Shown: positions 7,581 through 34,296, counted from the first letter of the stretch. The stretch is DNA of 34,623 nucleotides from a virus (IMGVR_UViG_3300005561_000001:1-34623), one strand, 5' to 3'. Notes: generated by a model from the letters alone, not told the origin. A program made the numbers and translations.

Positions 7581-7582
7581 AA

Positions 7583-7900: not shown

Positions 7901-7968
7901 TATTGTTCCTTCTGTAATATTGGTTGTTAAAATAATCTCTATCTTATTGCCCATTACTACACACTTTT

Positions 7969-7996: not shown

Positions 7997-8053
7997 TATT
8001 GTTAAATTTTTAATTATAATTATGCTGGAATGGTGTTCATTGTTCATATAGTG

Positions 8054-8098: not shown

Positions 8099-8125
8099 TA
8101 TTATTTTTATCTTTTAAGGAAATAT

Positions 8126-8317: not shown

Positions 8318-8332
8318 TCGGTTAGAGTAGTA

Positions 8333-14642: not shown

Positions 14643-14713
14643 GGAATAATATGAGTTATTGCATGTCTTTCCAGTCTATATTAATATCATACCTAAATCT
14701 TTTAGGAGTTGAT

Positions 14714-15211
14714 ATGAAAAACTGTATTGTATGCAATAAAGAATTTTACGCCAGGCACCGTGCAAAATCTTGTTCATTAAAATGCAAGATATTAGAAGGT
14801 ATTGAAAAACAAGAAAATGGATGTTGGCTTTATAAAAATACTTCTTCCGGTATGTATTCAAAGATTCGTTGGCAAATGAAATGGTATTCGGCCCATCGTA
14901 TCTCATATCAAGAATTTGTTGGAGATATTCCGAAAGATAAATTAGTTTGCCATAAATGCGATACTCCAAAATGTGTTAATCCTGAGCATCTATTTATTGG
15001 CACGCATCAAGATAATCGCAAGGATTGCGCAGCAAAAAAACGTGCACCAATCGGAGAAAATAATCATTTTTCTTGGTATACCAATGATCAAATTAAAGAA
15101 ATTAGATTATTAAAACAAGAAGGATTCACTTATGAAAGAATAAGTAGAATCTTTAATTGCAGTTTTTCGTATATTTATGAAATATTAAAAAATAATTACA
15201 GAAAGGAATGA
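14714..15211 (+). CDS. HNH homing endonuclease with C-terminal HTH
   Basis: A 165-aa protein. The N-terminal zinc ribbon is CIVC ... CSLKC (residues 4-24). The HNH core includes AHRISYQ (60-66), VCHKCDTPKCVNPEHLF (78-94) with catalytic-type His and Asn, and GTHQDNRKD. The C-terminal part (residues 123-160, TNDQIKEIRLLKQEGFTYER and on) is a helix-turn-helix DNA-binding domain, as in intron- or intergene-borne phage endonucleases. The start at 14714 has AGGAG; an in-frame ATG at 14651 lies next to the upstream gene's end but is less likely. It separates two tail genes and is flanked by AAGGAATRAT repeats, consistent with a mobile insertion. Confidence 0.88.
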   Translation: MKNCIVCNKEFYARHRAKSCSLKCKILEGIEKQENGCWLYKNTSSGMYSKIRWQMKWYSAHRISYQEFVGDIPKDKLVCHKCDTPKCVNPEHLFIGTHQDNRKDCAAKKRAPIGENNHFSWYTNDQIKEIRLLKQEGFTYERISRIFNCSFSYIYEILKNNYRKE

Positions 15212-20260: not shown

Positions 20261-21220
20261 ATGGCTTTAATTTATGAACCAACGATTGGTGCAAAACTTG
20301 CTGGTGGATTGACCCAGGGCTTTGGTTCTGGGTTGCAATCATTAATGGATATGAAATTAAATAAGATGATTCAAAAAAAGCAATTACGCACTGGATTGCA
20401 AGCGCTTTTGCCAGGATTAGAACCAGAAAGATATGATCAATTATCTGAAGCACCTATGGAATTATTACAGCCCTATTTAAAACAAGAATTAAAACGACCA
20501 CAAGAAGAAGCATTTGCCCGAGCTATAGGTGGACAGGGTGCACAACCAGGAGATCGATTATCTGGAGAACAAGCTCTTAAGCTCTCTGAGCATAAAATGA
20601 AACAACAAAAAGCTATAAATGAAGAAAATAAACTCTATGTTAATCCCATCATTGAGTCTTATCAACCATCTGTAGAACTTGAAAAAAAGATTGATGAAGC
20701 AATAAATCTTGTTCGGTCTGGCCAATTATCCTCAGGTATTAGCGGTCGATTACAATCAGCGGCTGGTTTATATAATACGGATGCAAGTCAGCGATATGAC
20801 ACGGTTATTAATGATATTATTAATGCTCAGGCCCAATTTGAAAAGGGAAATCCTGGAAAATTCAGACTTGATGCAATTCGTGCCGGTAAAGCGGGATTAA
20901 ATCAAAGTGATGAAAATAAGTTAAAATATCTTAATTCCGTTAAAGAAAGAGCAAGACATGCTCAAGATGAATATAATGCCCTTCAGGATGTCATAAAAGA
21001 ACATGGCGATAATCAGCCAAAAAATATAAATAAATATATAAAAGCAAAAGTTAAACAGAATGATAAAACATCAAAAGAGCTTGAAAAACGATTGGGCGCA
21101 CCGCAAGAAGATGGTACCGTGGTTGAAGATAATGGTGAATATTTTATGTCGATGGGTGGAGAATGGGAATCAATAGCACAAGATGATCCACGCCTTCTCA
21201 AATTATTACAAGGCGCATAA
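20261..21220 (+). CDS. Internal virion / ejection protein (putative)
   Basis: A 319-aa, largely helical protein. It starts with a Gly-rich amphipathic segment (IGAKLAGGLTQGFGSGLQSL), followed by charged helices and a long coiled-coil-prone region (YLNSVKERARHAQDEYNALQ). The C-terminal GEYFMSMGGEWESIAQDD is a small separate piece. Glycine-rich amphipathic starts followed by long helices are common in phage ejection proteins that form a channel across the envelope. It overlaps the next gene by one base (TAATG), so the two are translated together. Confidence 0.6.
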   Translation: MALIYEPTIGAKLAGGLTQGFGSGLQSLMDMKLNKMIQKKQLRTGLQALLPGLEPERYDQLSEAPMELLQPYLKQELKRPQEEAFARAIGGQGAQPGDRLSGEQALKLSEHKMKQQKAINEENKLYVNPIIESYQPSVELEKKIDEAINLVRSGQLSSGISGRLQSAAGLYNTDASQRYDTVINDIINAQAQFEKGNPGKFRLDAIRAGKAGLNQSDENKLKYLNSVKERARHAQDEYNALQDVIKEHGDNQPKNINKYIKAKVKQNDKTSKELEKRLGAPQEDGTVVEDNGEYFMSMGGEWESIAQDDPRLLKLLQGA

Positions 21221-22509
21221 TGGTTAAGATACTGGGCAAACTAGAGCCAAAATTACCATCGACCGGATTCTCACAAACAAAACAACAGGACTCAAATTTC
21301 ACCGATATTGCACGAAATATCATAAGCCCAGCACTTACAGCAGGTGAGTCAGTTTTGGGTGCTCCTGGAAACCTTTTGCAAGCAGCTTCAAATATTCTAG
21401 GTATAGAGCAGGCTCCGGGCCAACCAGCACAAGTTCCATTTAGCTCTCAAGGATTACGTAAAAACATTCGTGAACCATTATCAAAATACTTTGGAACCGA
21501 ACGATTAACGCTTCCCCAGGGTGAATTGGAAGAACGGTTTAATGATTTTGTTGGAGATGCGGCTTCAATATTTAGTGCTAATAAAGATCCTAGAAAAGCA
21601 TTAAAAGTTGCTGGATTAGGTAATTTGGCTGGCTATATGTCCCATCAATTAGGTGCAACACCTGGAGAAGAGGGGATTGCAAAAGTAGGAACCATGTTAC
21701 TTTCAAGTTTACACGGTGGCCGCGCAAAATTAGCAGCAGATGCAGATCAAAAATATAAATCTGTCGAATCTGCACTTAAAGATAAATCAATAACTACAAA
21801 AAATACCGTTAAAGATCTTGATAATTTAAAAAGCAAACTTTCTTCTGGTGGATCAACTCCTGCTAAAAAACTTGCCGAGGAACAAGTAGATAAACTGCTT
21901 GGTCAGTTTTATGGCAATAATGAAATCAAAGCAGAGAATCTGTGGGACTTTAAAAAAGATATGAATGAAATTTTACAGGGTCTCAGAAAAAATTCTCCTG
22001 AAAAAAAATATATAGAACAATTGGTAGGAATCGCAAAGAATGGCTTAAAAGAAGTAGGTCCTAATATTTACGGTCAATTAAGCGCTGCTGATGAAATATT
22101 CGGATCATTGGCCGCAAGTGATAAAATTGGCTCTTTTATAAAGAAAAAATTAAATATCGATACCATTAAGACCCCATATATTAGAACAGCGCTAACTAAT
22201 CTTACCAGCATTGGTTCATTGGGTGGTGCAGCAAAATTTGGTAGCTATTTAACCGGAATACCAACGTCAGGAATTCTTTTGGGTGCTGGTGGAGCGGGGG
22301 CACTTGCTAATGAAGGATTCAAGTTTATGAATCTGTTGCAACGAAGCCCAATAGCACGTGAAACATATATAAATTTATTGATGGACGGTCTTAGTGGTAG
22401 CTCTCAAGCCGCATTAAGAAATATTTCAAAATTAGATAAAATTGCTTCTAATTTTGAAGAAAAACAACCAGCGCAAAATAGAGTTCGGATTATAGGAAAA
22501 ATCCAATAA
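21220..22509 (+). CDS. Internal virion / ejection protein with hydrophobic C-terminal segment
   Basis: A 429-aa helical protein overlapping the previous stop by one base. It carries an amphipathic N-terminal region (ALTAGESVLGAPGNLLQAAS), a long charged helical middle, and near residues 340-370 a Gly/Ala-rich hydrophobic segment (TGIPTSGILLGAGGAGALAN) that could cross a membrane. Together with the two genes upstream it probably forms the ejection set that carries DNA across the envelope. No murein-hydrolase motif is visible, unlike in many podophage ejection proteins. It is the last plus-strand gene before the cluster of tiny genes. Confidence 0.6.
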   Translation: MVKILGKLEPKLPSTGFSQTKQQDSNFTDIARNIISPALTAGESVLGAPGNLLQAASNILGIEQAPGQPAQVPFSSQGLRKNIREPLSKYFGTERLTLPQGELEERFNDFVGDAASIFSANKDPRKALKVAGLGNLAGYMSHQLGATPGEEGIAKVGTMLLSSLHGGRAKLAADADQKYKSVESALKDKSITTKNTVKDLDNLKSKLSSGGSTPAKKLAEEQVDKLLGQFYGNNEIKAENLWDFKKDMNEILQGLRKNSPEKKYIEQLVGIAKNGLKEVGPNIYGQLSAADEIFGSLAASDKIGSFIKKKLNIDTIKTPYIRTALTNLTSIGSLGGAAKFGSYLTGIPTSGILLGAGGAGALANEGFKFMNLLQRSPIARETYINLLMDGLSGSSQAALRNISKLDKIASNFEEKQPAQNRVRIIGKIQ

Positions 22510-22510
22510 T

Positions 22511-22582
22511 TTATTTATCCAATAAAACCAAAAATATCATTAATAATAGTCCGGCTATATTCCATAAAAGAAATTCAATCAT
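22511..22582 (-). CDS. 23-aa single-span membrane peptide
   Basis: A 23-residue peptide (starts MIEFLLWNIAG, ends MIFLVLLDK), almost entirely hydrophobic. Its ATG overlaps the last base of the stop of the zinc-ribbon gene (TAATG), so it would be translated by coupling. It ends one base from the stop of gene 21220, which runs the other way. It is very short, so the call rests on the overlap and composition and on the same arrangement at 22932/22925. Confidence 0.45.
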   Translation of the reverse strand: MIEFLLWNIAGLLLMIFLVLLDK

Positions 22583-22725
22583 TATCTTCTACTTTCAGCT
22601 AGCATTTCACAATAAGCCACACAATTATCACACCACAATCCATCTTCATCGACATACTGATAATCTTTCCAATTATCCGTAGTCATTTCTGTTTCGCATC
22701 TTCTGCAATAATTCTTTTCTTCCAT
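22582..22725 (-). CDS. Small zinc-ribbon protein
   Basis: A 47-aa acidic protein with two cysteine pairs: YCRRC (residues 6-10) and WCDNCVAYC (31-39). Spacing of about 22 residues between CxxC pairs is typical of a zinc ribbon, which usually mediates protein or nucleic-acid contacts. The ribosome site is AGGGA, four bases before ATG. Coupled by TAATG to the membrane peptide downstream. Phages often carry such small zinc proteins to bind host RNA polymerase or other host factors, but the target here is unknown. Confidence 0.6.
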   Translation of the reverse strand: MEEKNYCRRCETEMTTDNWKDYQYVDEDGLWCDNCVAYCEMLAESRR

Positions 22726-22772
22726 TGTGTCCCTAATTAAAAATACCTTACCCTAAATACGAAGGAGCCATT

Positions 22773-22874
22773 ATGATTCACTTCGGTTATCTTTTAGCCT
22801 TTTATGTTGGCATATTGTTATTTCTGGCTGCTCTATGCATCACAATCGATATAGGCAGTAACAACAAGCAATAA
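22773..22874 (+). CDS. 33-aa single-span membrane peptide
   Basis: A 33-residue peptide (MIHFGYLLAFYVGILLFLAA ... IGSNNKQ) with one membrane span and a short polar tail. The ribosome site GAAGGAG is ideally placed five bases before the ATG, making this the best supported of the tiny membrane genes. Its 3' end overlaps the antisense gene 22840-22932 by 35 bases. A holin-like or regulatory role is possible but not shown. Confidence 0.6.
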   Translation: MIHFGYLLAFYVGILLFLAALCITIDIGSNNKQ

Positions 22875-22932
22875 GCAGTAAAACAATGCCGGCTATCATA
22901 TAGTTCAAGAATATGTCATTAAAGTCATTCAT
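22840..22932 (-). CDS. 30-aa single-span membrane peptide
   Basis: A 30-residue peptide (MNDFNDIFLNYMIAGIVLLL then IACCYCLYRL) whose start lies eight bases inside the RHH repressor gene. It has one membrane span and a Cys-rich end. It overlaps the opposing gene 22773-22874. It repeats the soluble-protein-plus-overlapping-membrane-peptide layout of the neighbouring zinc-ribbon pair. Confidence 0.45.
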   Translation of the reverse strand: MNDFNDIFLNYMIAGIVLLLIACCYCLYRL

Positions 22933-23071
22933 TTACTTTCTCATCCCTATTTAATGCTTCTATGATTGCCTGCAAAATATAAACCGTCATTGATACATTT
23001 TTCCATGCCGCCATCTGTTTTATGCGTGTATGAATCGCCAGCGGTATATCCGCTATTAATCTTTTTTTCAT
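22925..23071 (-). CDS. Ribbon-helix-helix (Arc-type) repressor
   Basis: A 48-aa protein: beta strand KKRLIADIPLAIH (residues 2-14), first helix TRIKQMAAWKN, the turn VSMTVYILQAII (second helix), then ALNRDEK. This matches the ribbon-helix-helix fold of Arc-like regulators, which bind palindromic operators as dimers of dimers. The ribosome site AGGTG is four bases before ATG. Its own promoter carries a 14-bp palindrome over the -10 box, so autorepression is likely. It could also repress the divergent fibre operon that begins about 100 bp away. Confidence 0.78.
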   Translation of the reverse strand: MKKRLIADIPLAIHTRIKQMAAWKNVSMTVYILQAIIEALNRDEKVNE

Positions 23072-23081
23072 AGTACACCTA

Positions 23082-23115
23082 TGTATAAATATACAGGAAT
23101 TTAAAGTAATTGCAA
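23082..23115 (-). promoter_or_regulatory. Promoter and palindromic operator of the RHH gene
   Basis: On the minus strand: TTGCAA (23115-23110), a 16-bp spacer, TATATT (23093-23088). The -10 box lies within the perfect palindrome TGTATA-AA-TATACA (23082-23095). Palindromes of this kind are typical Arc/RHH binding sites, so the repressor would block its own promoter. Confidence 0.6.
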
Positions 23116-23175
23116 GTCCCTTTTGGAATATGTTTAGCTGGAATAAATAACTTACATTCCTTTAAGGGAGAGATA

Positions 23176-24522
23176 ATGGCAGGTCAAACAAGAAGTAAAG
23201 TAGCTTATGGCTTATCTGAAGCATTACCAGTAATGCCGCCATCGCCAATTGTGGCAAAAAGAGCACCAACGAGTGCTGATAAGGCACCTTTAGGAACTTT
23301 GTGGATTGAACCGGTCGATAGTTCTGGGGTAGCAGTTAATAAATCATGGGTCTTAACCTCTATAATTAGCAATTTAGCTACCTGGAATCTTTTGGAAGCA
23401 TCGGGCGCCGCTGGTGTTTTTTCGACACTTACTTCGACTGGGGCTACCACATTAGCCACAGCCGGCGCATCTGTTAACACCTTCGGTAATACAACTGGCG
23501 CAACTAGCTTATCGCTTTTAGTTGGAACGGGAAATTTTTCGCTCGACGGCGTTGCCGGCTCGACATATACCATTGGCGCATCAACCACAACCGGCACAAT
23601 AACCATTGGTGGTACTGCTCAAAGTGGCGCGATTACATTGGGATCTTCAACTGCTGGTAATACGCTTATTATCGCTGGCGGTTCCGGCGCAGGCGTGGTA
23701 ACGATTGCCGATGTCCAAACTGGTGGTTCGGTTTCAATTGGTGCCGGCATGACAACTGGTACAATATCCATTGGCGGAACCGGTCTCCAAGTTGGCAACT
23801 TTGATTTAGCACCAGGAACAGGTGCACAACAAGTCACCCTTGCAAATGGCTCTGGAATTAAATCAATTCTTATTGGTAATGGCGTTTCTGGTAATACCAT
23901 ATCAATTGGTAATGGCATAAATACTGGCGCTCAAATCGTAAATATAGCCAATGGTGCAGCTGCTGCAAACTCAACGGTTAATATTCTTTCCGGGATTGCT
24001 ACTGCTGGTACACAGACATTGAATCTGGGTGCTGGTGCATTTGCAAAGGTTATTAATATTGGTACCGGCTCAGCAGTAGCTAATAATATTAATATCGGTG
24101 GTACGGGTAATAACGTAATCGCTCTCGGTAATCTACAAGTTGGCGGATCGATCTCAATTGGCACCGCATTAACAACGGGGACTATTCAAATTGGTTCTGT
24201 ACTTTCTGGTCTTGTTACTATGCCCGGACCATCCGTTTCTGCGGCTGCAACGACCGTGGTTAACAATGTTAATGTTGGACAAGCTATTTCTACCGGTAAT
24301 GTGACTGCTTCCGGTGCAACATTGGTTTTAACACTCACTAATTCATTTATTACCACGACCTGTAAGATGCTTATGACCATTTCAAATGGTGGTACTAATG
24401 ATGCTCAGATGACCGTCCAAAGAATTCAAAAGAATGCCGGCTCTGCAACCATTACCTTAAAGAATAATGGTGCTGCTGCATTGAACGGTGATGTTCACAT
24501 TGATTTCCACGTCTTCAACTAA
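23176..24522 (+). CDS. Tail fibre protein 1, glycine/threonine-rich repeats
   Basis: A 448-aa protein. An N-terminal domain (residues 29-72; RAPTSADKAPLGTLWIEPVD, then WVLTSIISNLATWNL) is shared in pattern with the N-terminus of gene 29025 and is probably the virion-attachment part. It is followed by a repetitive Gly/Thr/Ile region with units such as TIGASTTTGTITIGGTAQSG, typical of trimeric beta-helical fibre shafts, and a C-terminal beta domain (TLKNNGAAALNGDVHIDFHV). The start at 23176 has AAGGGAG upstream; a longer in-frame start at 23110 would overlap the RHH promoter. Strong terminator follows at 24537. Confidence 0.8.
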   Translation: MAGQTRSKVAYGLSEALPVMPPSPIVAKRAPTSADKAPLGTLWIEPVDSSGVAVNKSWVLTSIISNLATWNLLEASGAAGVFSTLTSTGATTLATAGASVNTFGNTTGATSLSLLVGTGNFSLDGVAGSTYTIGASTTTGTITIGGTAQSGAITLGSSTAGNTLIIAGGSGAGVVTIADVQTGGSVSIGAGMTTGTISIGGTGLQVGNFDLAPGTGAQQVTLANGSGIKSILIGNGVSGNTISIGNGINTGAQIVNIANGAAAANSTVNILSGIATAGTQTLNLGAGAFAKVINIGTGSAVANNINIGGTGNNVIALGNLQVGGSISIGTALTTGTIQIGSVLSGLVTMPGPSVSAAATTVVNNVNVGQAISTGNVTASGATLVLTLTNSFITTTCKMLMTISNGGTNDAQMTVQRIQKNAGSATITLKNNGAAALNGDVHIDFHVFN

Positions 24523-24536
24523 TTAAATATTTGTGT

Positions 24537-24566
24537 AAAAGTTGAGTGAATAACGCTCAACTTTTT
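24537..24566 (+). terminator. Rho-independent terminator after fibre gene 1
   Basis: A 12-pair stem AAAAGTTGAGTG/CGCTCAACTTTT (24537-24548, 24554-24565) with loop AATAA and a T-run at the 3' side. The A-run on the 5' side may let it work in both directions. It separates fibre gene 1 from the following fibre operon. Confidence 0.9.
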
Positions 24567-24583
24567 ACCTGATTGGAGAAGTC

Positions 24584-24787
24584 ATGGATTTAATCGGTTA
24601 TGTAATCATGCCAATACAAAAGAATGGTCGCAGCTATCTCTTTAATATTCCCATGGGATCACCTTATGCTGATGTTAAAGAAGTTTGTGCAGAAATTCTG
24701 GCAAATATTAATCAAATGGAAGCCGATGCAGCCGCAGCTGATAAAAAAGCAGCAGATGAATCGATAATTCCCGAACTGGTGGAATAA
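24584..24787 (+). CDS. Small protein at the head of the fibre operon
   Basis: A 67-aa protein with a beta-like start (DLIGYVIMPIQKNGRSYLFN) and an Ala/Asp-rich helix (MEADAAAADKKAADES). GGAG ribosome site. Its stop overlaps the next start (TAATG). It may be a small tail-associated or chaperone-like protein for the fibres; no family recognised. Confidence 0.65.
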   Translation: MDLIGYVIMPIQKNGRSYLFNIPMGSPYADVKEVCAEILANINQMEADAAAADKKAADESIIPELVE

Positions 24788-25128
24788 TGGCAAAAAATAG
24801 TATTGCACCTATACCCCTTACGTCGATCGATTCGGCGACCTTTACTGGTGCATATCAATTATTATCAGGAGCAGGCGGCTTAACAAACGCCTGCTTTTTA
24901 ATACGTATTATTAATAATTCTAATAAAGATGTGACCATAAGTTATGATGGAAGCCATGATCATGACTTTGTTCCATTAGGCAAAGAAATTCAATTGCCTT
25001 TTCAAACAAATAAAGCACCAAGTGGCATGGTTGCCAATATAGCCCAAGGTACAAAAATTTATGTGAAGGGCGCTGCAGGCGCCGGGTTGGTATATCTTTC
25101 TGGATATTTTTCACCGGTCGGTGGCTAA
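24787..25128 (+). CDS. Small beta-sandwich virion protein, paralogue of 25141
   Basis: A 113-aa protein, all-beta by appearance (ACFLIRIINNSNKDVTISYD), ending IAQGTKIYVKGAAGAGLVYL then SGYFSPVGG. The neighbour gene 25141 has the same length and the same C-terminal block. Such small beta proteins often sit at fibre bases or cap the capsid. It is coupled by TAATG to the gene upstream. Confidence 0.7.
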   Translation: MAKNSIAPIPLTSIDSATFTGAYQLLSGAGGLTNACFLIRIINNSNKDVTISYDGSHDHDFVPLGKEIQLPFQTNKAPSGMVANIAQGTKIYVKGAAGAGLVYLSGYFSPVGG

Positions 25129-25140
25129 AGGAGAGTAATT

Positions 25141-25482
25141 ATGAGCACATCTTTAGCAATACGATTGCTAGCAGAAACTCTCAGAACATTGGCTTTTGGC
25201 TCAATATCTGGAACTTATGCCGCATTGGGTTCAGCATTAGCGAATCCCTGCCGTATTTTGTACATAGTAAATAATACTGACGCATTGCTCACTTTCAGTT
25301 TTGATGGTGTTAATGATCATTTTGTGATTCCCTCGATGAGTTTTATGATTCTTGATGTAACCAGTAATATGTCAATTCCCGGAGGTTGGTTAACCATAGC
25401 TCAAGGTACAAAAATTTATGTTAAAGGTTCGCCTGGTGCGGGTTCTGTTTACCTTTCAGTCTTTTATGGGGGTAATGGATAA
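25141..25482 (+). CDS. Small beta-sandwich virion protein, paralogue of 24787
   Basis: A 113-aa protein, equal in length to gene 24787, with matching landmarks: PCRILYIVNNTDALLTFSFD aligns with the paralogue's strand pair, then IAQGTKIYVKGSPGAGSVYL. The N-terminal 30 residues have diverged. The pair is a tandem duplication. AGGAG ribosome site. Its stop overlaps the next start (TAATG). Confidence 0.7.
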   Translation: MSTSLAIRLLAETLRTLAFGSISGTYAALGSALANPCRILYIVNNTDALLTFSFDGVNDHFVIPSMSFMILDVTSNMSIPGGWLTIAQGTKIYVKGSPGAGSVYLSVFYGGNG

Positions 25483-26774
25483 TGTCACAACTTTCTCGCT
25501 TAATACCGACGTCAGGTCCGGGTTCAGGTACAGTAACGAGTATTTCCGCCGGCACCGGTATAACGCTCACTCCCAATCCCATCACTACAACTGGCACCGT
25601 GGCCCTGACTGTGCCGGTGGCGATTGCTAATGGTGGAACAAATGCAATAACGTTTGCCACCACCGATGGCACAGTCTATTATGATGGCACTCGATTAGTG
25701 ACGACAGCAACTGGATCTGCCGGACAAGTTTTAACTAGTAATGGTGTTGGTCTTGCTCCAACTTACCAAACTTCACCAGCAAGCGTAACTTCCATTACAG
25801 GTAATACGGGAGGTGCTCAAACTGGAGCAATTACTCTTATTACTGCCAATGCAACGCCTATATTTGCAGGTGTTGCTGGTACCATAACATTAGACTTTAA
25901 TAAATCGAACTTAATTCTGGGCAATAACGGATCTACTATAACCATTGGTGCGGCCAATGACGGATTTGGATCTGGAGTTCTTCAGAATATAACATCCGGC
26001 ACTAGTAATAGTGCTTTTGGTAATGCCAGCCTTCAGAATGTTATTGGTGGCTCTCAAAACAGTGCCTATGGCGCCAGCTCTGGCACTGCTTTAAATAGTG
26101 GTGGGAACAACACACTTATTGGCTATCAATCTGGATTATTGCTTCAATCTGGTAATAGTAACGTTGCTCTCGGTTATCAATCCGGTAGTGCATGGGGCGC
26201 GGCAGTTTCTAATAACATTTCTATTGGTACCATTGGTTCTGTTGCTGATTCAGCCAGAATTCGTATTGGTACTAATGGTGTTCATACCACGTTCTTTGCG
26301 GCTGGAATCGATGGCGTTAACGTTGGATCTGTGGCCAAAGTACTTACCATGGCTAGCGATCAATTGGGAACAGCTACGATCACTGGGGGTTCTGGTATAA
26401 CGGTTAATCCTGGAGCCAATACGATAACTATATCATCTACCGGTGGCATTACCTGGTCAGTTATAACGGTAAATCAAACGGCTGCGGTTGATAATGGTTA
26501 TATTTGTAATAAGGCCGGTACCTTATCTTTATTATTACCGGCGACGTCTGCTGTAGGAGACATGATACGAGTGACTGGCATTAATACTGCTCTCGGATGG
26601 CAAATAACTCAAGCAGCCGGTCAACAAGTATTCTTTGGTACTTCTTCAACGACATTAGGAGCTGGGGGTAGTTTAACATCTTCGGCTACAAGAGATGCGA
26701 TAGAAATTGTTTGTATAGCTGCTAATACGACATGGCAAGTTCTTTCTAGTATTGGCAATATAACGGTGGTGTAA
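25482..26774 (+). CDS. Tail fibre protein 2 with YadA-head-like repeats
   Basis: A 430-aa protein. The N-terminus (TVTSISAGTGITLTPNPITT then GGTNAITF) is typical of phage and bacterial fibre modules. Residues about 165-235 carry repeats of the trimeric-adhesin head type (NSAFGNASLQN, NSAYGASSG, NTLIGYQSG, NVALGYQSG), which form left-handed beta rolls. A motif GQVLTSNGVGLAPTYQ recurs in the other two large fibres. The C-terminal part ends LSSIGNITVV. It probably binds a host receptor as a trimer. Overlaps the next gene by one base (TAATG). Confidence 0.8.
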   Translation: MSQLSRLIPTSGPGSGTVTSISAGTGITLTPNPITTTGTVALTVPVAIANGGTNAITFATTDGTVYYDGTRLVTTATGSAGQVLTSNGVGLAPTYQTSPASVTSITGNTGGAQTGAITLITANATPIFAGVAGTITLDFNKSNLILGNNGSTITIGAANDGFGSGVLQNITSGTSNSAFGNASLQNVIGGSQNSAYGASSGTALNSGGNNTLIGYQSGLLLQSGNSNVALGYQSGSAWGAAVSNNISIGTIGSVADSARIRIGTNGVHTTFFAAGIDGVNVGSVAKVLTMASDQLGTATITGGSGITVNPGANTITISSTGGITWSVITVNQTAAVDNGYICNKAGTLSLLLPATSAVGDMIRVTGINTALGWQITQAAGQQVFFGTSSTTLGAGGSLTSSATRDAIEIVCIAANTTWQVLSSIGNITVV

Positions 26775-29014
26775 TGGCAACAAATAATGCATGGAATTCA
26801 AGTGATCCTGCGGAAGTGGCAAAAGGTGGAACTGGTAATGCTACGTTAACAAATCATGGAGTTTTGATCGGTGCTGGAACAAGTGCTATAACACAATTGT
26901 CAGTTGCCTCAACTGGTACAGTAATGATTGGCAACACCGGTGCTGATCCATCATTTAGCGCAACTCCAACAGTCACAAGTATTACAATTTCAAATGCGCC
27001 GGTAGTGGGAACTGATGGTACTAATAAAACATATGTCGATACTATTGCTGCTGGATTTGAATTTAAAAGCGCTTGTTATGCAGCAACTACGGCAAATCTT
27101 ACTGCTACTTATAATAATGGTGCTGCTGGTATTGGTGCATTTTTACTTAATACGGGTGCATTAGCAGCATTTTCGGTAGACGGAACAACTCCCCCAATAA
27201 ATTCTCGCATTTTAGTTAAAAATCAAACGAGTCAATTAGAAAATGGTATTTATACCTTAACAACGGTCGGATCTGGTGCTATTGCCTGGGTGTTAACTCG
27301 TGCCACTGATTATGATCAACCATCTGAAATCCAATCAGGTGATATAGTTCCAGTTATAAACGGAACAGCTAATGCCGATACTTTATGGTTAGAAACTGCA
27401 ACTGTTACAACAATTGGCGTTGATTCAATTATATTTGTTAAATTTCTTGGTCAAGGTATAACTACGATAACTGGCGATACCGGTGGTGCGCTAAGCGGTT
27501 CTAATATTACTTTTGCCGGTGGAACTACGGGATTATCTTTTGGTGGATCTGGAACAACTGAAACTCTCACTTTTGCCGGTATAACTGCCAACGGTGGAAC
27601 CGTTTCATTGGCTACTGATGCGACCACGAGCACGATTAATGTGGGAACCGGAGCAGGAGTAAAAACATCTACGTTCGGTTCTACTAACTCAACGAGTGCC
27701 ACTACCATGCAATCAGGTTCTGGAGCTCTTGCAATAACCTCAACTAATGGAACTCTCACAATAAATAGTGGCACAGGAGCATTGGGTATATCTACCGATG
27801 CATCAGCCACAACAGTCAGTTTTGCGACAGGCGCCGCAGTTAAGGGTGTGACGCTCGGGTCAACAAATAGTACTTCAGCGACTACTGTTCAATCTGGTAG
27901 CGGCGCTTTAAATGTGACCGCAACAAATGGTGCGTTAACTATAAATTCTGGGACTGGGGCACTTGGCATATCGACCGACTCTAGTAATACCACTATTAGT
28001 TTTGGAACAGGTGCCGCAGCTAAATTGGTAACCATTGGTAGTACTAATGGTGCATCTTCTTTAACTGAAAAAGTTGGTACTGGAAATTATGTTCTTGATG
28101 GTGTAACCAATTCGACTTATACGATTGGCGCATCTACAACGACCGGATCATACACACTTGGTGGCACAGCGCAAACTGGCACCATTACACTGGGTTCTTC
28201 TTCGGGGACCAATATAGTCGCCATCGGCGCAGGCACCGGTGCAACTACGGTTAATATTGCTGGTGGCGCAACAAATGCCAAAACGGTAAATATTGCTACA
28301 GGAGCGGTAGCAAATATAACTACTATCGGAACAACGACTGCATCTTCAACGTTAACGTTGAATGCCCCTGCAGCAGGACTTAAAATAGGCGGCTTTGCAG
28401 AAGGCGCTCTTGTTACGTCCAGTGCTGGTGCAGTTTCTACGGTTACTGGAACAGCCGGATTTGTATTAACAGCAAACGCTGCCGGTACAGCTCCCAGCTT
28501 CCAGACTTTACCGGCAAGTTCAAGTGCATTAACTCTTATATCAACTCAAACCGCGTCAGCATCGAGCTCTATAACATTTACAACAGGTATTAGTTCATCA
28601 AATGACGCCTATCTATTGATATGTAAGAAAGTTGTGCTAGAAGCAGCTGCTGCTTCTGCCAACACGCTAGAAATGCAAATTTCTACAGATGGAGGAAGCA
28701 CTTGGAAAACTACAAGTTACAACACCCCAAGTGGGATTACGACTGGATTTGATTTGGGAATGACTACTAAAAATGCAGCACAAACAGTCACCTGGAATGG
28801 TCAAATCCAACTTTTTAATTTTACAGGATCAACTAATATACCAATGATAACTGGATTAACTACTTATTCGGTAACATCTACGTTAGCAACTGGACAAGGA
28901 ACACCGGGATTTGCTTATCAAGGTGGCACTGTTGCGGTTAATGCACTCAAAATATTAATGACGGACGCTAGCAACTTTTCTGGCGTTTTTTCATTATATT
29001 CATACAGTCAATAA
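26774..29014 (+). CDS. Tail fibre protein 3, long repetitive shaft
   Basis: A 746-aa protein. Its N-terminus (VAKGGTGNATLTNHGVLIGA) is a common fibre start. Residues about 90-220 (RILVKNQTSQLENGIYTLTT ... TRATDYDQPSEIQSGDIVPV) form a domain known in many phage baseplate and fibre proteins. Two 60-residue repeats (299-358, 359-418; 47 of 60 identical) follow, and a block near 435-478 that matches fibre 1 (STYTIGASTTTG). The C-terminal domain (LISTQTASASSSITFTTGIS onward) is a jelly-roll-like tip. It is the longest fibre gene and likely a trimeric receptor-binding fibre. Confidence 0.82.
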   Translation: MATNNAWNSSDPAEVAKGGTGNATLTNHGVLIGAGTSAITQLSVASTGTVMIGNTGADPSFSATPTVTSITISNAPVVGTDGTNKTYVDTIAAGFEFKSACYAATTANLTATYNNGAAGIGAFLLNTGALAAFSVDGTTPPINSRILVKNQTSQLENGIYTLTTVGSGAIAWVLTRATDYDQPSEIQSGDIVPVINGTANADTLWLETATVTTIGVDSIIFVKFLGQGITTITGDTGGALSGSNITFAGGTTGLSFGGSGTTETLTFAGITANGGTVSLATDATTSTINVGTGAGVKTSTFGSTNSTSATTMQSGSGALAITSTNGTLTINSGTGALGISTDASATTVSFATGAAVKGVTLGSTNSTSATTVQSGSGALNVTATNGALTINSGTGALGISTDSSNTTISFGTGAAAKLVTIGSTNGASSLTEKVGTGNYVLDGVTNSTYTIGASTTTGSYTLGGTAQTGTITLGSSSGTNIVAIGAGTGATTVNIAGGATNAKTVNIATGAVANITTIGTTTASSTLTLNAPAAGLKIGGFAEGALVTSSAGAVSTVTGTAGFVLTANAAGTAPSFQTLPASSSALTLISTQTASASSSITFTTGISSSNDAYLLICKKVVLEAAAASANTLEMQISTDGGSTWKTTSYNTPSGITTGFDLGMTTKNAAQTVTWNGQIQLFNFTGSTNIPMITGLTTYSVTSTLATGQGTPGFAYQGGTVAVNALKILMTDASNFSGVFSLYSYSQ

Positions 29015-29024
29015 ATGGAGTAAT

Positions 29025-30482
29025 ATGGCAAACAAAAGAAGAGAAAATCGCCTTAATGGCTTATTCCCGCTTTCATATGTTGGGGTAATACCCACAAGTC
29101 CACAGAATTTTATACAAGACACCCGGGCCCCAACATCTTCTGATTCACATAATTTTTATATTGGTGATATTTGGCTCGATTTTTCCAGTGACACAGCGGC
29201 TGGCGGATATGTTAAGCCAACAATCAATAATATCTGGATATTGGTCTCTCTTGATGGTGGTTCAGCTACTTGGATAAATTTTGGTGGTAGTGGTGTTCTT
29301 GTTGAAACATTAACGGGTAATGATGGTTTAGCTGCCACGCCATTGGTTAATAATATTAATGTTAAGGGCGATGGTACGCTAATTAATATAACAAGAAGCC
29401 CCGACGTCCATAGTTTGTTAGTTAGTTTAGGTGGAACGGTTGCGATTTCATTTCCAACGGATTCGGGGACAGCTATACCATCATCTGGTTCTTTGAATAT
29501 TATTACGGGACTTTCAACAAATGCAGCCGGTATCACAACTTTATTTACCGGATCTGGCAATACGGTTCAATTTAAAAACACAGATGCTAATGGTAACGTC
29601 GCATTTGGTAAAAGCTCTGGCAAATCGGGTATGTCTGGTTTACGCAATAGTGCATTTGGACAAAATACATTAACCGCTATTACATCTGGTAGTGATAATA
29701 CTGCTCTTGGTTTTGCGGCATTAAATGCGATTACCACACCATCAGATAATGTTGCTATTGGTTCAGCAGCGTTATTAAATTTAGTAACAGGATCACAGAA
29801 TATTGCTGTTGGTTTTGATTCTGGTGATAATTACACCGGCGCCGAATCAAGCAATATTATTATCGGTAATCTTGGTGTTCTTGGCGAAAACAATGTTATT
29901 CGCATTGGAACAAATGGTGGCGGAGCTGGCCAACAAAGCTCATGTTTTGTAGCTGGTATAAATGGTGTGACAGTTGCGAATGCTGATCAAGTTGTTCTGG
30001 TAAATGTATCAAACCAATTAAGTGCCGTAGCACACGGTACAACTGGACAAGTATTCACTAGCCAAGGAGCTGGAGTAAATCCGATATGGGCAACTCCGGC
30101 TGCTGGTAATTCACGTAGTATTATTGGGGTGTCAAATGTCACATTGGGAACAACGGGTGGAGTAAGATGGGCTGATCCATATAGCCCAGGAGCTACAGCC
30201 GGACAAGCAGATTCTGAATTTATTGTGCCGGTTGCGTGTACTTTAAGCAAACTATATGTAAATGTAACTTCAAATGCGAGCACGACCAATGGAACCGTTA
30301 CTTTAAATAAAAATGGGGTACATACAGCCGTTACAGTTACTTTAACTGCACTAACTACGGGAACATTTACAGATCTTGTTAATTCAGTTTCATTTGTTGC
30401 GGGTGATTTGATGCAATGGGAAATGGCGCAAACGACAACTGGAGGTATAACTGGAAGTGTTAGTATGCAAGTATTGGCTTAA
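29025..30482 (+). CDS. Tail fibre protein 4 with YadA-head-like repeats
   Basis: A 485-aa protein. The N-terminal domain (residues 34-86; RAPTSSDSHNFYIGDIWLDF, then SATWINFGG) is shared in pattern with fibre 1. Repeats of the trimeric-adhesin head type lie near residues 185-285 (NVAFGKSSG, NSAFGQNTL, NTALGFAAL, NVAIGSAAL, NIAVGFDSG). The block GQVFTSQGAGVNPIWATP matches the motif in fibres 2 and 3. A C-terminal beta domain (LYVNVTSNASTTNGTVTLNK) ends the protein. It thus combines the fibre-1 anchor with fibre-2-like repeats. GGAG ribosome site. Confidence 0.8.
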   Translation: MANKRRENRLNGLFPLSYVGVIPTSPQNFIQDTRAPTSSDSHNFYIGDIWLDFSSDTAAGGYVKPTINNIWILVSLDGGSATWINFGGSGVLVETLTGNDGLAATPLVNNINVKGDGTLINITRSPDVHSLLVSLGGTVAISFPTDSGTAIPSSGSLNIITGLSTNAAGITTLFTGSGNTVQFKNTDANGNVAFGKSSGKSGMSGLRNSAFGQNTLTAITSGSDNTALGFAALNAITTPSDNVAIGSAALLNLVTGSQNIAVGFDSGDNYTGAESSNIIIGNLGVLGENNVIRIGTNGGGAGQQSSCFVAGINGVTVANADQVVLVNVSNQLSAVAHGTTGQVFTSQGAGVNPIWATPAAGNSRSIIGVSNVTLGTTGGVRWADPYSPGATAGQADSEFIVPVACTLSKLYVNVTSNASTTNGTVTLNKNGVHTAVTVTLTALTTGTFTDLVNSVSFVAGDLMQWEMAQTTTGGITGSVSMQVLA

Positions 30483-30519
30483 TGACTTTACAAAAAAAAT
30501 ATGACATAATCTCATGGAC

Positions 30520-30596
30520 CCCAAAAGTGAATTAGATACTCCTTTAAGGGTCAGAACTTTTGGGAATCATGTAAAAAGTGATTCCCGTTCTTTTTA
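30520..30596 (+). terminator. Terminator of the fibre operon with overlapping alternative hairpin
   Basis: The terminator stem is GGGAATCA/TGATTCCC (30562-30569, 30579-30586) with a T-run at 30591-30595; flanking AGAAC and GTTCT can extend it. Upstream, CCCAAAAGT (30520-30528) can pair instead with ACTTTTGGG (30556-30564), which would use the GGG of the terminator stem. The two folds exclude each other. The stretch 30483-30824 has no gene: it holds these hairpins, a GTGACA/TGTCAC hairpin at 30629-30643, and the features at 30699-30779. Confidence 0.7.
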
Positions 30597-30698
30597 ATAC
30601 AATTTCAGTTGCCTCGGCAGATCAAACCGTGACATTCTGTCACACTTTCATTAAAATAGTCCCATTAGTGAGTATTAGTACACACTAGCATTAAAACA

Positions 30699-30720
30699 CC
30701 CCCCGCTGTTACACGGGGGG
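30699..30720 (-). terminator. Terminator of the leftward early operon
   Basis: A seven-pair stem CCCCCCG/CGGGGGG (30699-30705, 30714-30720) with loop CTGTTACA. On the minus strand it is followed by TGTTTTAATG, so it suits the leftward ERF operon. It resembles the portal-operon terminator at 6842 (G/C-only arms and a similar loop). Confidence 0.6.
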
Positions 30721-30736
30721 CAGTTCAACCAACCAA

Positions 30737-30779
30737 GGTGATTAGGAGTCACCAGAGTAGAAGGCCAGAGTTGTCTGGC
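30737..30779. other. Two small hairpins downstream of the leftward operon
   Basis: GGTGA/TCACC (30737-30741, 30749-30753) and GCCAGA/TCTGGC (30764-30769, 30774-30779, loop GTTG). They lie between the last leftward gene (stop at 30825) and its terminator, forming a structured 3' untranslated region. A protein-binding or mRNA-protection role is possible. Confidence 0.4.
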
Positions 30780-30824
30780 AATAAGCAGGGTTTTACATTT
30801 AGTTACAAGCAGTTTCTTTACGCG

Positions 30825-31010
30825 CTAGGCGTCAATACGTTCCCAGCGGGGATGTTCTTCATCTTTACTGCACTGCATATAAGAATCTATTTTCTGGCCA
30901 AATCCGTTAATTACGTCACAAAGTGATCCGTAAGGTGCTTGATCAAATTTGCCTGGAGCACTGTAGCGAACAACACTCTTTACAGCAGAATTGTTCTGTT
31001 CCTGATTCAT
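30825..31010 (-). CDS. Small protein overlapping gene 30943-31173
   Basis: A 61-aa soluble protein (MNQEQNNSAVKSVVRYSAPG ... HPRWERIDA). The ATG at 31010 has a strong GGAGGAG ribosome site about ten bases upstream, inside the overlapping gene 30943-31173, which it shares in another frame for 68 bases. A longer in-frame reading upstream to 31067 lacks such a site. It is the last gene of the leftward operon. Function unknown. Confidence 0.55.
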   Translation of the reverse strand: MNQEQNNSAVKSVVRYSAPGKFDQAPYGSLCDVINGFGQKIDSYMQCSKDEEHPRWERIDA

Positions 31011-31173
31011 GTAAATCAAACTCCTCCATAATGGCATCAAGTTCATCTTGACTGATATACTCGTCAAATATCAAGGGATCGATACGATTACAAAATTGAT
31101 CAAATTGTTGTAATTCCCAAGTAACTGGAGACATTATGGCGAGCAATATTAAATTAGCTAGCGCTGGATTCAT
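30943..31173 (-). CDS. Small protein with hydrophobic N-terminus and Cys-rich end
   Basis: A 76-aa protein with a hydrophobic start (MNPALANLILLAIMSP), an acidic middle (EYISQDELDAIMEEFDLHES) and a cysteine-rich tail (CCKECCSLQC). The AGGGA ribosome site lies inside the end of the ERF gene, which it overlaps by 20 bases. The Cys-rich tail lies where it overlaps gene 30825-31010 in another frame, so its cysteines may partly reflect that constraint. Function unknown. Confidence 0.5.
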   Translation of the reverse strand: MNPALANLILLAIMSPVTWELQQFDQFCNRIDPLIFDEYISQDELDAIMEEFDLHESGTEQFCCKECCSLQCSRQI

Positions 31174-31936
31174 TGTTTTTCCCTAAATTGGTTGGCGTGT
31201 TTCTGTTTAATTTTCTTTCACGAACTCTGGTGATAATAAATTTAAATCGAGAGCGTGGTAAATCAGCAATGGTTCTCACATCATATGCTTTCATAATATC
31301 TTCAACCAATTCCGGATAAGCATCAAGTTCATCTTCTAATTGTTCAATTTCGGTCTTAGTAAGCGTTTCTAATGATTCTGGTGGTTTCTGTTGGTGGTTA
31401 ATAGCGGTGCCTTTTTCAAACTGTTTTCTTTGTTCTCTCATCACCTCTTCGCCATCATCATCTTCATCACCAGTAACCACACCAACCAATGATGCAAATG
31501 CAATACGCTTCATGTAGGTATTATATCCTGCAAGTGAATGCATATCGGTCTTTGGTGGAATTATCTTGATTCTGGATTCAAGCCATTGACCGGAAATATG
31601 CATTAATAAAGTAAATAAATATAAAGTACCAAGATCGTCGTATACCAAATTTTGAGAAACCGCTAAATTATTTTTTGATAATGCCGGTCGGGCTGCTTCA
31701 ACAACAGCTGCAAGATCTGCATAATTGCTTTTGTAGAATGGATTAGACTTATTCATCCCAGCCATCGTAATTTCGCTTTGGGCCTTTGAAAGAGCTTGCG
31801 CAACCTCGTTGATCGACTCTGATCGATAACTTCGCTCTTTCGGTATTTTTTGTAGCTCCAAAGCAATAGCTAGTTTTTCTTTATCTGCATAAAGTTGTTT
31901 AACGTGTTCTAGAAGTTTAACGACATCATTTTCCAT
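31154..31936 (-). CDS. erf: ERF-family single-strand DNA annealing protein
   Basis: A 260-aa protein with the ERF signature: KSNPFYKSNYADLAAVVEAA (residues 63-82), RPALSKNNLAVSQ, then SGQWLESRIKI (115-125) and AGYNTYMKRIAFASLVGVVT (136-155) followed by GDEDDDGEE. The P22 Erf protein and relatives anneal single strands for recombination and circularisation of the genome after entry. The C-terminal part (from about residue 165) is linker and helical. AAGGA ribosome site. It is the third gene of the leftward operon. With RusA it provides a complete anneal-and-resolve pathway, consistent with a circularly permuted genome. Confidence 0.9.
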   Translation of the reverse strand: MENDVVKLLEHVKQLYADKEKLAIALELQKIPKERSYRSESINEVAQALSKAQSEITMAGMNKSNPFYKSNYADLAAVVEAARPALSKNNLAVSQNLVYDDLGTLYLFTLLMHISGQWLESRIKIIPPKTDMHSLAGYNTYMKRIAFASLVGVVTGDEDDDGEEVMREQRKQFEKGTAINHQQKPPESLETLTKTEIEQLEDELDAYPELVEDIMKAYDVRTIADLPRSRFKFIITRVRERKLNRNTPTNLGKNNESSAS

Positions 31937-32162
31937 CTTTTTCCTTGGTGGATTCTATGGGAATTTCCTTTTTTGGGTTCTTTAATTTTTCAAGAATATT
32001 AAAAATACGTATTACATTGGTTTTCGTTTGATCAATATCATGATTGGTATCCTGAGCGAATTTCATGTAATGCTTCCATAATACGGAATATTTATATGCT
32101 AAATAAATGATCATGCCGGTGTTAAAATATGCCAGAAAACATAAGATATTTACTAGTGTCAT
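31926..32162 (-). CDS. Small membrane protein of the early operon
   Basis: A 78-aa protein with one N-terminal membrane span (residues 2-24, TLVNILCFLAYFNTGMIIYL) and a long charged helix in the cytoplasm or periplasm. The start at 32162 has GGAG six bases upstream and overlaps the stop of gene 32299 (ATGA). Its 3' end overlaps the ERF start by 11 bases. It may tether DNA metabolism to the membrane or act in exclusion; no family recognised. Confidence 0.65.
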   Translation of the reverse strand: MTLVNILCFLAYFNTGMIIYLAYKYSVLWKHYMKFAQDTNHDIDQTKTNVIRIFNILEKLKNPKKEIPIESTKEKDGK

Positions 32163-32299
32163 AAATTCTCCAGATCGCATCCGGTTACATGGTTACAATA
32201 TTTATTTGTTTTGCAATCATGTCTTCTTTTCTTGATATACCATTTTAAGCGCCACCATAAATATTTAATAGCGCGAAGTTGTGATTTTAAATAAGGCAT
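32159..32299 (-). CDS. 46-aa basic Cys/His protein, first gene of the leftward operon
   Basis: A 46-residue protein (MPYLKSQLRAIKYLWWRLKW, YIKKRRHDCKTNKYCNHVTG, CDLENL). It is strongly basic, with three cysteines and a histidine (C29, C35, H37, C41) that could bind one zinc ion. The ribosome site GGAGA is close to the ATG, and its stop overlaps the next start (ATGA). It is the first gene after the leftward promoter, about 20 bases downstream of the predicted start. It may bind nucleic acid. The overlap and ribosome site make it convincing. Confidence 0.6.
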   Translation of the reverse strand: MPYLKSQLRAIKYLWWRLKWYIKKRRHDCKTNKYCNHVTGCDLENL

Positions 32300-32317
32300 A
32301 CATCTCCAATAATTTAG

Positions 32318-32354
32318 TTGCTATTTATCATAACAAATTGTATACTTTTGTCAA
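32318..32354. promoter_or_regulatory. Overlapping divergent early promoters with central operator
   Basis: Rightward: TTGCTA (32318-32323), 17 bp, TATACT (32341-32346). Leftward: TTGACA (32354-32349 on the minus strand), 16 bp, TATGAT (32332-32327). The two promoters occupy the same 37 bp. Between and over them, ACAAA (32333-32337) and TTTGT (32347-32351) form an inverted repeat with a nine-base centre containing GTATAC. Only one polymerase could bind at a time, and a dimeric repressor on this site would control both operons. Confidence 0.65.
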
Positions 32355-32371
32355 TTTATTATGGAGATAAA

Positions 32372-32590
32372 ATGTATTCAGAGCTTGATTTTGATGAATT
32401 AAGAAAACGTTTTTTTATGGTTATGAAAAAGAGTGCGAAAACATATGCCCAACTTGCTCGAGAAAGTGGTGTATCTAAACAAGTATTGCATTTATGGGCC
32501 ACAAGTGCGCAGCGTGGGATGTATCCCAGCAATGCATATAAATTAATTAATTATATTGAAGCAAAAGAAAAAGATTTGGGATTAGAATGA
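32372..32590 (+). CDS. Cro-like helix-turn-helix regulator
   Basis: A 72-aa protein with a helix-turn-helix at residues 24-43 (TYAQLARESGVSKQVLHLWA) followed by a loop and helix (RGMYPSNAYKLINYIEAKEK). Size and layout match small Cro-type DNA-binding proteins. The ATG at 32372 has GGAG six bases upstream; the longer reading from 32318 would cover the promoter. It is the first gene right of the divergent promoters, so it most likely binds the operator between them and acts as the switch between leftward and rightward early transcription. Its stop overlaps the next start (ATGA). Confidence 0.78.
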   Translation: MYSELDFDELRKRFFMVMKKSAKTYAQLARESGVSKQVLHLWATSAQRGMYPSNAYKLINYIEAKEKDLGLE

Positions 32591-32730
32591 GCGATGTTTT
32601 AATGTTAGCACTATTCGGCAATATATTTCTTGGTGTTTGTGTAATTGGATTATTGATTATTAACAGATTGTGGAAGCGTATGTATTTTGAAAAAGTTAGA
32701 GAATTGAAGAAAAAAGCCTCGACAAATTAA
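32587..32730 (+). CDS. 47-aa single-span membrane protein
   Basis: A 47-residue protein with an N-terminal span (residues 4-26, VLMLALFGNIFLGVCVIGLL) and a basic tail (RLWKRMYFEKVRELKKKAST). Its ATG overlaps the regulator's stop (ATGA). The basic inside-tail is common in small phage membrane proteins that affect the host envelope or exclude other phages. It is the second gene of the rightward early operon, and a partner of the regulator by coupling. Confidence 0.6.
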   Translation: MSDVLMLALFGNIFLGVCVIGLLIINRLWKRMYFEKVRELKKKASTN

Positions 32731-32838: not shown

Positions 32839-34296
32839 ATGTCAAAGATTACCAGCAAAAATCACAAAAATCAAGCCCCGATCGACATAATTTCTTATGT
32901 TATTGAAGCACATAAAATCAAACGGGCAGTAATTAATGCGTTTGTAGAATTGTCTCATAGATTTAAAGATATTTACGCCCGACAAGAAACGATAGCAAAA
33001 TTAGTAGGCATATCCAGACAGCATTGCAATAAGATAATTGCTGAATTACATGCGGATGGTTTTTTGTGGAAAGTTGGTCGGCACAAAACATCCTGTTTTT
33101 ACCGATTGCCAGCTTCTTTGTTTAAATATCAATCTCAATTACGAAATATCCTCCCCGCCTTAGGGTTTATGTCTATATGGCTACTGTTTCCTTGCCAAAG
33201 AGAATTAGATGACACTAGATATAATAGTTTATTTAAAAAACACAGACACAACACAGACAGAGTCACAAACAACACTAACACTATTACGCGCGATGCGCGG
33301 GAGAAAGTCCAAGAACCTAAAGAGCATTTCAATCTGAAATACAATGGCACAAACTCGTATCGAGATAAAAAAGAGAGTGAGTTAATGAGCGAAGTAATGA
33401 GCACGGCGCGTTCCGCCGCTATACCCGAATATTTACATAACCTGAAAAGTGTCGTGTTAACAACTGCAGGAAAGGTGTGGTTGTGTGGTTTTGAAGAAAA
33501 ATCTGTGAAGGTGGGTGATGATGCATTGTGTCGAAAACTATCGAGTGTTTCTGATCCCTTTCGGTATCTGTTTGCTGTCGCAAAAAAACATAGCGATGAA
33601 AATGGTCTGAAAATAGATTGGACCAGGCGAATGAAACTTGCTCAGGAATTACAAGTCACAGATGTGATGCCAATGATTGAAAGAGTCAAATCACAAACAG
33701 AACAGAAATCAAATAAAGAAAACAGAGAATCGACAAATCAGAAAACATCGTCTGATAACACCCATCAATCTAAGCAAAAACCATCATACGATATCCCCTT
33801 GATGGAAGAATATTTAGCCAGATTCAGAGCTGAATTGGATTACCAAGACCTAGATGTCGCATTGGGTAAAAAGGGATTTTCGCATTCACAAGCTTATCGT
33901 GCGGCCCGAGATATATATCGCGAAGAAGAGAGTGATGTAAAAAAAGTAACGCGGTTAAATACACGGTTAAATAATCCGGATTTGAAGAAATTTGCTTCAG
34001 CACAGGGAACATGGGAAGGTTTAAAAAATCAAATCGAACGTGAATTAGCAGAAGTTCAAGGCAAAATAGCGCCATCGCCAGTTAATAATCCATTTTATGA
34101 TTCTAATAAGCCGATTTTTGTAAGCAAAGAAGCCGAACTAATGCATGAATGTGAACCAGGATGTATCTGTGGTAAAATAACAATGGCGCAATCAGCTCCA
34201 GACACCGATGATTCGTTTTCTACTTCGGGACTGGGTTGGACATTTGATGATAATTTACCGTATGATAAAAACGGAGAATTTAGTGAAGTGTTCTGA
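32839..34296 (+). CDS. Replication initiation-type protein with N-terminal winged helix
   Basis: A 485-aa protein from the ATG at 32839. Residues 28-80 form a winged-helix DNA-binding domain (RAVINAFVELSHRF, ETIAKLVGISRQHCNKIIAE, LHADGFLWKVGRHK). The rest is charged and largely helical, with a disordered Ser/Lys/Gln-rich linker (residues about 290-330) and a Cys-rich patch (CEPGCICGK) near the C-terminus. Proteins with this layout start replication or organise the replisome in phages and plasmids. There is no helicase or primase signature. The start is uncertain: a TTG at 32773 would add 22 residues, and another frame at 32787-32906 also looks protein-like. It precedes rusA by two bases. Confidence 0.65.
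   Translation: MSKITSKNHKNQAPIDIISYVIEAHKIKRAVINAFVELSHRFKDIYARQETIAKLVGISRQHCNKIIAELHADGFLWKVGRHKTSCFYRLPASLFKYQSQLRNILPALGFMSIWLLFPCQRELDDTRYNSLFKKHRHNTDRVTNNTNTITRDAREKVQEPKEHFNLKYNGTNSYRDKKESELMSEVMSTARSAAIPEYLHNLKSVVLTTAGKVWLCGFEEKSVKVGDDALCRKLSSVSDPFRYLFAVAKKHSDENGLKIDWTRRMKLAQELQVTDVMPMIERVKSQTEQKSNKENRESTNQKTSSDNTHQSKQKPSYDIPLMEEYLARFRAELDYQDLDVALGKKGFSHSQAYRAARDIYREEESDVKKVTRLNTRLNNPDLKKFASAQGTWEGLKNQIERELAEVQGKIAPSPVNNPFYDSNKPIFVSKEAELMHECEPGCICGKITMAQSAPDTDDSFSTSGLGWTFDDNLPYDKNGEFSEVF

Follow-up and report, generated by a model that had tools for sequence, protein, structure and literature searches.

In phage P22, gene 16 is followed by sieA, orf59a and mnt on the opposite strand, and then by arc-ant and gene 9. 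This region has been called the ant moron; it is variable, mostly independently expressed, and carries ribbon-helix-helix (RHH) repressors together with genes of unknown function (PMC2629481, PMC8022706). Several P22-like ant morons are without ant, and as a group they are in rapid flux (PMC2629481). The current study concerns four pairs of small genes in a linear virus record of IMG/VR (IMGVR_UViG_3300005561_000001:1-34623; 34,623 bases, the whole of which is referred to as the window), each consisting of a regulator-like, zinc-type or basic protein followed by an overlapping membrane microprotein. The window phage is a short-tailed phage with a P22-like gene order (terminase, portal (phrog_156), major head protein (phrog_1357), tail and Erf genes). 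Two of the pairs lie at a site (A) comparable to the P22 ant moron, or immI, and two at a divergent early region (site B) comparable to immC of lambda and P22. The pairs are genuine and form small, densely packed operons at regulatory sites of the P22 kind.

Four overlapping gene pairs

All four pairs are present in the window (Table 1), with overlaps of 1, 8, 4 and 4 nt, exactly where they had been placed by an earlier reading made by a model from the DNA alone (the sequence-only reading). That reading described every second member as a single-span membrane protein; three of the four open reading frames (ORFs) pass a strict cut-off (Kyte-Doolittle mean over 17 residues of at least 2.2), whereas the 78-aa ORF is only moderately hydrophobic (1.85). 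Its assignment of two soluble partners to DNA-binding folds, RHH and helix-turn-helix (HTH), is reasonable, and the membrane parts, which it called not obviously related, are unrelated in sequence. It missed a fifth membrane micro-ORF, of 33 aa, as well as the further overlaps that link the 46- and 78-aa genes to Erf and a 76-aa gene.

When the DNA 3' of each stop codon was shuffled and a coupled membrane ORF then looked for, one was found in 0.1–0.5% of trials for the three strong window pairs, and in 0.05–3% over all sites tested. Across the window and 17 stretches of its relatives, a coupled membrane micro-ORF stands behind 7 of 21 small RHH, zinc or HTH genes versus 3 of 334 genes of at least 100 aa, an imperfect comparison in that the 21 small genes were picked by hand while every one of the 334 is longer and some of them are mechanical ORFs. 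If the window is left out, 4 of 17 small regulator or zinc genes still carry such an ORF (Fisher p = 1e-4). Given the shuffles and this excess, chance is a poor explanation of the pairs. The short ORFs very probably represent genes.

The repetition of the layout had been taken as a sign of a shared design. This stands in so far as a small regulator or zinc gene with a coupled microprotein recurs in relatives above background, but not in the sense of four copies of one system, since the partners are unrelated and conservation differs between the pairs. A shared origin of all four was rejected on these grounds and because two kinds of site are involved. The sequence-only reading had also called for a search for the same coupled pairs in related genomes: the overlap of the HTH gene with the 47-aa gene (the HTH/47 pair) is kept in the closest relative, L062, and RHH and zinc pairs recur, but L062 has no 46/78 pair and instead carries a 49-aa Cys-rich protein ahead of Erf.

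Table 1. Features of sites A and B in the window, and gene content of the site A island in the window and in related genomes (Zn, zinc-type protein).
Feature	Position	Strand	Remarks
Site A
429-aa presumed ejection-type protein, island flank	21220..22509	+	Relative in G013; role assigned from position
23-aa single-span membrane microprotein	22511..22582	-	1-nt overlap with Zn-protein stop (TAATG); hydrophobicity 2.66; chance 0.5%
47-aa zinc-ribbon-like protein, CxxC...CxxC	22582..22725	-	Relatives in G006, G011 and, weakly, G017; all four cysteines invariant
33-aa membrane micro-ORF	22773..22874	+ (late strand)	AAGGAG ribosome site; hydrophobicity 2.81; 3' end antisense to 30-aa ORF
30-aa single-span membrane microprotein	22840..22932	-	8-nt overlap with RHH gene; hydrophobicity 2.53; chance 0.2%
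48-aa RHH (Arc-like) DNA-binding protein	22925..23071	-	phrog_582 Arc-like repressor; same locus in 7/7 covering relatives
Promoter-like site for RHH gene, TTGCAA-16-TATATT	23088..23115	-	Number of such sites in region not above shuffles
Tail-fibre-like protein, other island flank	23176..24522	+	N-terminal motif PI..KRAPT..D.A..GT.W shared in family
Site B
Erf-type single-strand annealing protein	31154..31936	-	PF04404 E=9e-19; phrog_2324 E=4e-32
78-aa membrane protein, Erf operon	31926..32162	-	ATGA, 4-nt overlap with 46-aa gene; 11-nt overlap with Erf
46-aa basic Cys/His protein, first leftward (Erf-operon) gene	32159..32299	-	No family match
Rightward promoter-like site, TTGCTA-17-TATACT	32318..32346	+	9/12 matches
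Leftward promoter-like site, TTGACA-16-TATGAT	32327..32354	-	11/12 matches
72-aa HTH regulator, Cro-like position	32372..32590	+	36% identical to L062 protein; assignment from weak matches
47-aa membrane microprotein	32587..32730	+	ATGA, 4-nt overlap with HTH gene; 45% identical to L062 protein
O-like replication protein, next rightward gene	32839..34296	+	Weak match, phrog_270 E=2e-4; has relatives
Site A islands
Window			RHH, 30-aa membrane, Zn, 23-aa membrane
G012			RHH, 36-aa membrane (TAATG)
G016			RHH, 40-aa membrane
G006			RHH, Zn, 51-aa membrane (TGATG)
G013			RHH, Cys/His, membrane ORF of 26-46 aa by start choice
G017	L139 11294-11611 (105-aa protein)		RHH, 105-aa zinc-type protein with C-terminal membrane span
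G002			RHH, 112-aa protein, 48-aa membrane (30-nt gap); further membrane ORF overlaps RHH start
G011			RHH, HTH, Zn; no clear membrane ORF

Site A: an antisense island among late genes

Site A (nt 22511–23071, minus strand) is an island of antisense genes bounded by the last of the presumed ejection-protein genes and by the tail-fibre gene, as P22 immI lies between gene 16 and the tailspike gene 9. Like the mnt-orf59a-sieA branch of P22, it runs antisense, begins with an RHH gene, and includes a small soluble gene as well as a membrane gene beside the ejection gene. The immI placement, inside the late operon between genes of the gene 16 and tailspike or fibre types, is found here as well, with the gene-16-type member identified by position: the 429-aa flanking protein has no BLASTP similarity to P22 gp16, so the correspondence of this flank rests on its location. 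A scan of viral contigs with the 429-aa protein gave no relatives, and the genes flanking the island across the phage family are partly related to each other. Unlike P22 immI, the window island shows no arc-ant branch, and it contains no ant-sized frame (the relatives were not searched for Ant). The window RHH protein is 48 aa long, in contrast to 83 aa for Mnt, and the membrane products of site A are of 23–51 aa with one span and overlap the preceding gene.

The RHH protein occurs in seven of seven relatives that cover site A (G002, G006, G011, G012, G013, G016 and G017); none was seen in the more distant contigs searched, and it has no match in GenBank phages. In all eight genomes the gene is antisense and is flanked by a tail-fibre-type gene and, opposite, by the gene of a presumed ejection protein of 404–651 aa, and the stretch from the RHH gene to the ejection gene is short (100–604 bp). 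A membrane microprotein lies directly behind the RHH or zinc gene (start not more than 1 nt from the stop, or overlapping) in the window, G006, G012, G013 and G016, while the 105-aa chain of G017 unites the zinc and membrane features that the window encodes as separate genes. The architecture of site A is largely kept, though the sequences are not, and the RHH alignment proved too variable for scanning viral contigs.

Six of the eight RHH family members match the Arc-like repressor family phrog_582 (E to 7.6e-5). A profile match to Arc/Mnt has E=4e-4 and a probability of only 36%, and an AlphaFold model made from one sequence was a single helix and uninformative; together the matches suggest a weak to moderate link to Arc/Mnt. 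The CxxC and WC..C motifs are present in the zinc protein of four genomes. A scan of viral contigs with the zinc alignment recovered only the already known G011 contig, the zinc protein of G011 has no match in GenBank phages, and no sequence relatives were found for the 23-aa microprotein.

Site B: a divergent early region

Site B (nt 31926–32730) is an early control region of the lambda/P22 type without a cI gene between its operons. As in immC, face-to-face promoter-like sites are followed leftward by Erf and rightward by a small HTH gene of Cro type and an O-like replication gene, although the HTH and replication matches are weak. Unlike immC, it has no cI/c2 between the operons, where only 72 bp separate the divergent start codons and both promoter-like sites lie; a membrane microprotein follows the HTH gene, and no integrase was found in the window or its relatives.

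The AlphaFold model of the 72-aa HTH protein has four helices, and its closest folds are HipB, XRE and 434 Cro, with insignificant matches; a scan of viral contigs with this protein gave no relatives. Small HTH-like frames occupy the same place in L062, G016, G017 and G021, none of them with a Pfam domain, and those of the last three have no coupled membrane partner. Among the relatives, the HTH/47 pair was found only in L062, which keeps both genes (36% identity for the HTH protein, 45% for the membrane protein) together with the 4-nt ATGA overlap, the membrane protein being better conserved than the regulator. A motif beside the membrane span, RLWKRxY, is also conserved between the two microproteins. 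This offers the best evidence that one of the microproteins is a real, constrained gene.

The leftward chain of the 46-aa gene, the 78-aa gene, Erf and the 76-aa gene shows an overlap at every junction (11 nt between the 78-aa gene and Erf, 20 nt at the 76-aa gene). If an upstream ATG is chosen, the 78-aa ORF becomes 84 aa long with an overlap of 22 nt. No relative of the 78-aa protein was found. In G017, two small genes that overlap by 28 nt, one for a zinc-type protein of 34 aa and one for a membrane protein of 35 aa, precede Erf.

Alternative explanations

Plain genome compaction would account for the pairs without any joint function, as early and moron genes are short and packed and small membrane proteins are common. 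Since every junction in the leftward operon overlaps, overlap there marks no special pair; the membrane partners show no sequence relationship and are present in some relatives but not in others, much as the published P22-like ant morons are likewise in rapid flux (PMC2629481). What compaction explains less well is that coupled membrane micro-ORFs are far commoner behind small regulator or zinc genes than elsewhere, the comparison genes all being of at least 100 aa. The conservation of the HTH/47 pair together with its overlap, and the presence of zinc and membrane parts in one protein of G017, also speak against mere compaction, which is a possible but doubtful explanation.

It is unlikely that the pairs are toxin-antitoxin-like units, in which the RHH (or HTH) protein would repress, and perhaps bind, a small membrane-depolarising toxin. 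The likeness to type II systems with RHH antitoxins (ParD, CopG, FitA) lies in a small RHH gene that overlaps a short gene behind it; weak Pfam matches include the RHH antitoxin families ParD, CopG, HicB and FitA, and single-span hydrophobic peptides of 23–47 aa are of a size seen in membrane toxins. In contrast to those systems, no known toxin family follows, and the partner is either a zinc protein or a single membrane span: no gene for a toxin of the ParE/RelE/PIN type was recognised, there was no toxin-antitoxin match in PADLOC or NCBIfam, and RHH repressors without a toxin (Arc, Mnt) are classic at this site in P22. Membership in the type II class was rejected, as searches of Pfam, PHROGs, PADLOC and NCBIfam recognised no toxin beside the RHH gene.

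Least probable is a role of the microproteins as lysis or envelope-rupture proteins in phages that lack a recognised lysis cassette: Phage_lysozyme, Amidase_2 and SLT domains were found in none of 11 contigs (the window and 10 relatives), the window proteins that were scanned matched no lysis family, and the 33-aa ORF lies on the late strand behind a strong ribosome site. However, all four pairs either run antisense to late genes or belong to early operons, which is the wrong timing for lysis; in the relatives of the window, no late-strand frame that is preceded by a ribosome site was seen at a position comparable to that of the 33-aa ORF; and with so many proteins lacking a family match an unrecognised endolysin is easily possible.

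Proposed function of the microproteins

We favour, with about even confidence, a reading in which the window combines two known kinds of phage regulatory site, a P22-like moron island at A and a divergent early region at B, and in which the microproteins are coupled and act at the membrane. Taking together the genes, their overlaps, the synteny, the recurrence in relatives and the HTH/47 conservation, the following scheme can be proposed. The RHH protein would control its own promoter and head a short operon for the zinc-ribbon protein and one or two single-span microproteins; the HTH protein would likewise control its own operon. Because the genes overlap, we infer stop-start translational coupling, in which a ribosome ending the regulator or zinc gene would start the microprotein at the overlapping start codon and both products would be made together. 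The microproteins would act at the host inner membrane, their predicted location. In the zinc cases the microprotein would probably hold its zinc partner at the membrane, since G017 has both features in one protein. At site A, the products could hinder a second phage from entering, as SieA, encoded at this position in P22, does.

Exclusion had already been among the guesses of the sequence-only reading, and the location fits: site A lies where P22 keeps mnt, orf59a and sieA (PMC8022706, PMC2629481), and, as with SieA, a membrane protein is encoded antisense there. The activity itself would be a guess by analogy with P22, and superinfection exclusion or another envelope function is our best guess for the microproteins.

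Several points weigh against this reading. SieA has three predicted spans in about 162 aa, whereas the microproteins have one span in 23–84 aa, and those of site A reach at most one third of the SieA length. The sieA gene of P22 is expressed from a separate promoter located behind a terminator and shows no coupling to a regulator, and no SieA similarity appeared in the family searches. Palindromic operators 5' of the RHH genes did not exceed shuffles, the island of G011 is without a clear membrane ORF, and the membrane ORF of G002 does not overlap the preceding gene. As no integrase was found in the window or relatives, exclusion by a prophage is doubtful, but this does not speak against exclusion during lytic infection. 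Membership of the microproteins in the SieA family was rejected on size and span number, and because the motif FxRYPxEAxxFNK is missing from the translations.

Genome context and other features

A terminase query of viral contigs gave relatives at 88, 82, 79, 68–66 and 54–49% identity, along with lower matches, while GenBank phages include no DNA relatives of the window from 21 to 34.6 kb. In L062 the replication gene is followed by a 168-aa gene of RusA-like appearance, an 80-aa gene and the terminase genes. Because L062 runs on from the replication gene to the terminase genes in this way, the window probably represents a nearly complete genome that has been opened and is given in linear form. 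The 80-aa gene (nt 5058–5300 of L062), which lies between the RusA-like and small-terminase genes, resembles another RHH protein by eye and has no PHROG match.

Among bacterial genomes, the nearest terminase (45% identity) is that of PMZB01000021.1 (5.5 kb), which is adjoined by a similar portal gene. This is a small phage-like contig binned with a metagenome-assembled genome of Chlamydiia, and the link to the Chlamydiae is by binning alone; tailed phages of Chlamydiae would be noteworthy, if true. Between the portal and head genes of the window (nt 6908–8795) is a block of small proteins with signal-peptide-like N-termini, encoded on both strands but mostly on the minus strand, to which Pfam and PHROG assigned no function. 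Frames resembling HNH-type homing endonucleases, recognised by eye only, are inserted among the structural genes at nt 14651–15211 and 2248–2754, the latter having no Pfam match.

Implications

A bolder version of the functional reading has a slim chance of being right. It would see a two-part module, a zinc-ribbon or Cys/His protein coupled to a single span (or, in one relative, carrying it), which is placed at moron and early sites and alters the infected cell's envelope, in a lineage without a recognised endolysin whose hosts are maybe environmental Chlamydiae.

The P22-like slot, with its RHH gene and rapidly changing membrane genes, persists in a lineage that has no DNA relative among GenBank phages, which suggests that the ant moron site of P22 is much older than the enterobacterial phages in which it was defined. 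A conserved slot, coupled membrane genes, and a zinc protein with a membrane span of its own make this a case worth testing. The membrane proteins of 23–84 aa form a short list of candidates for exclusion or envelope functions, and are of a kind that length-limited gene callers are likely to miss.

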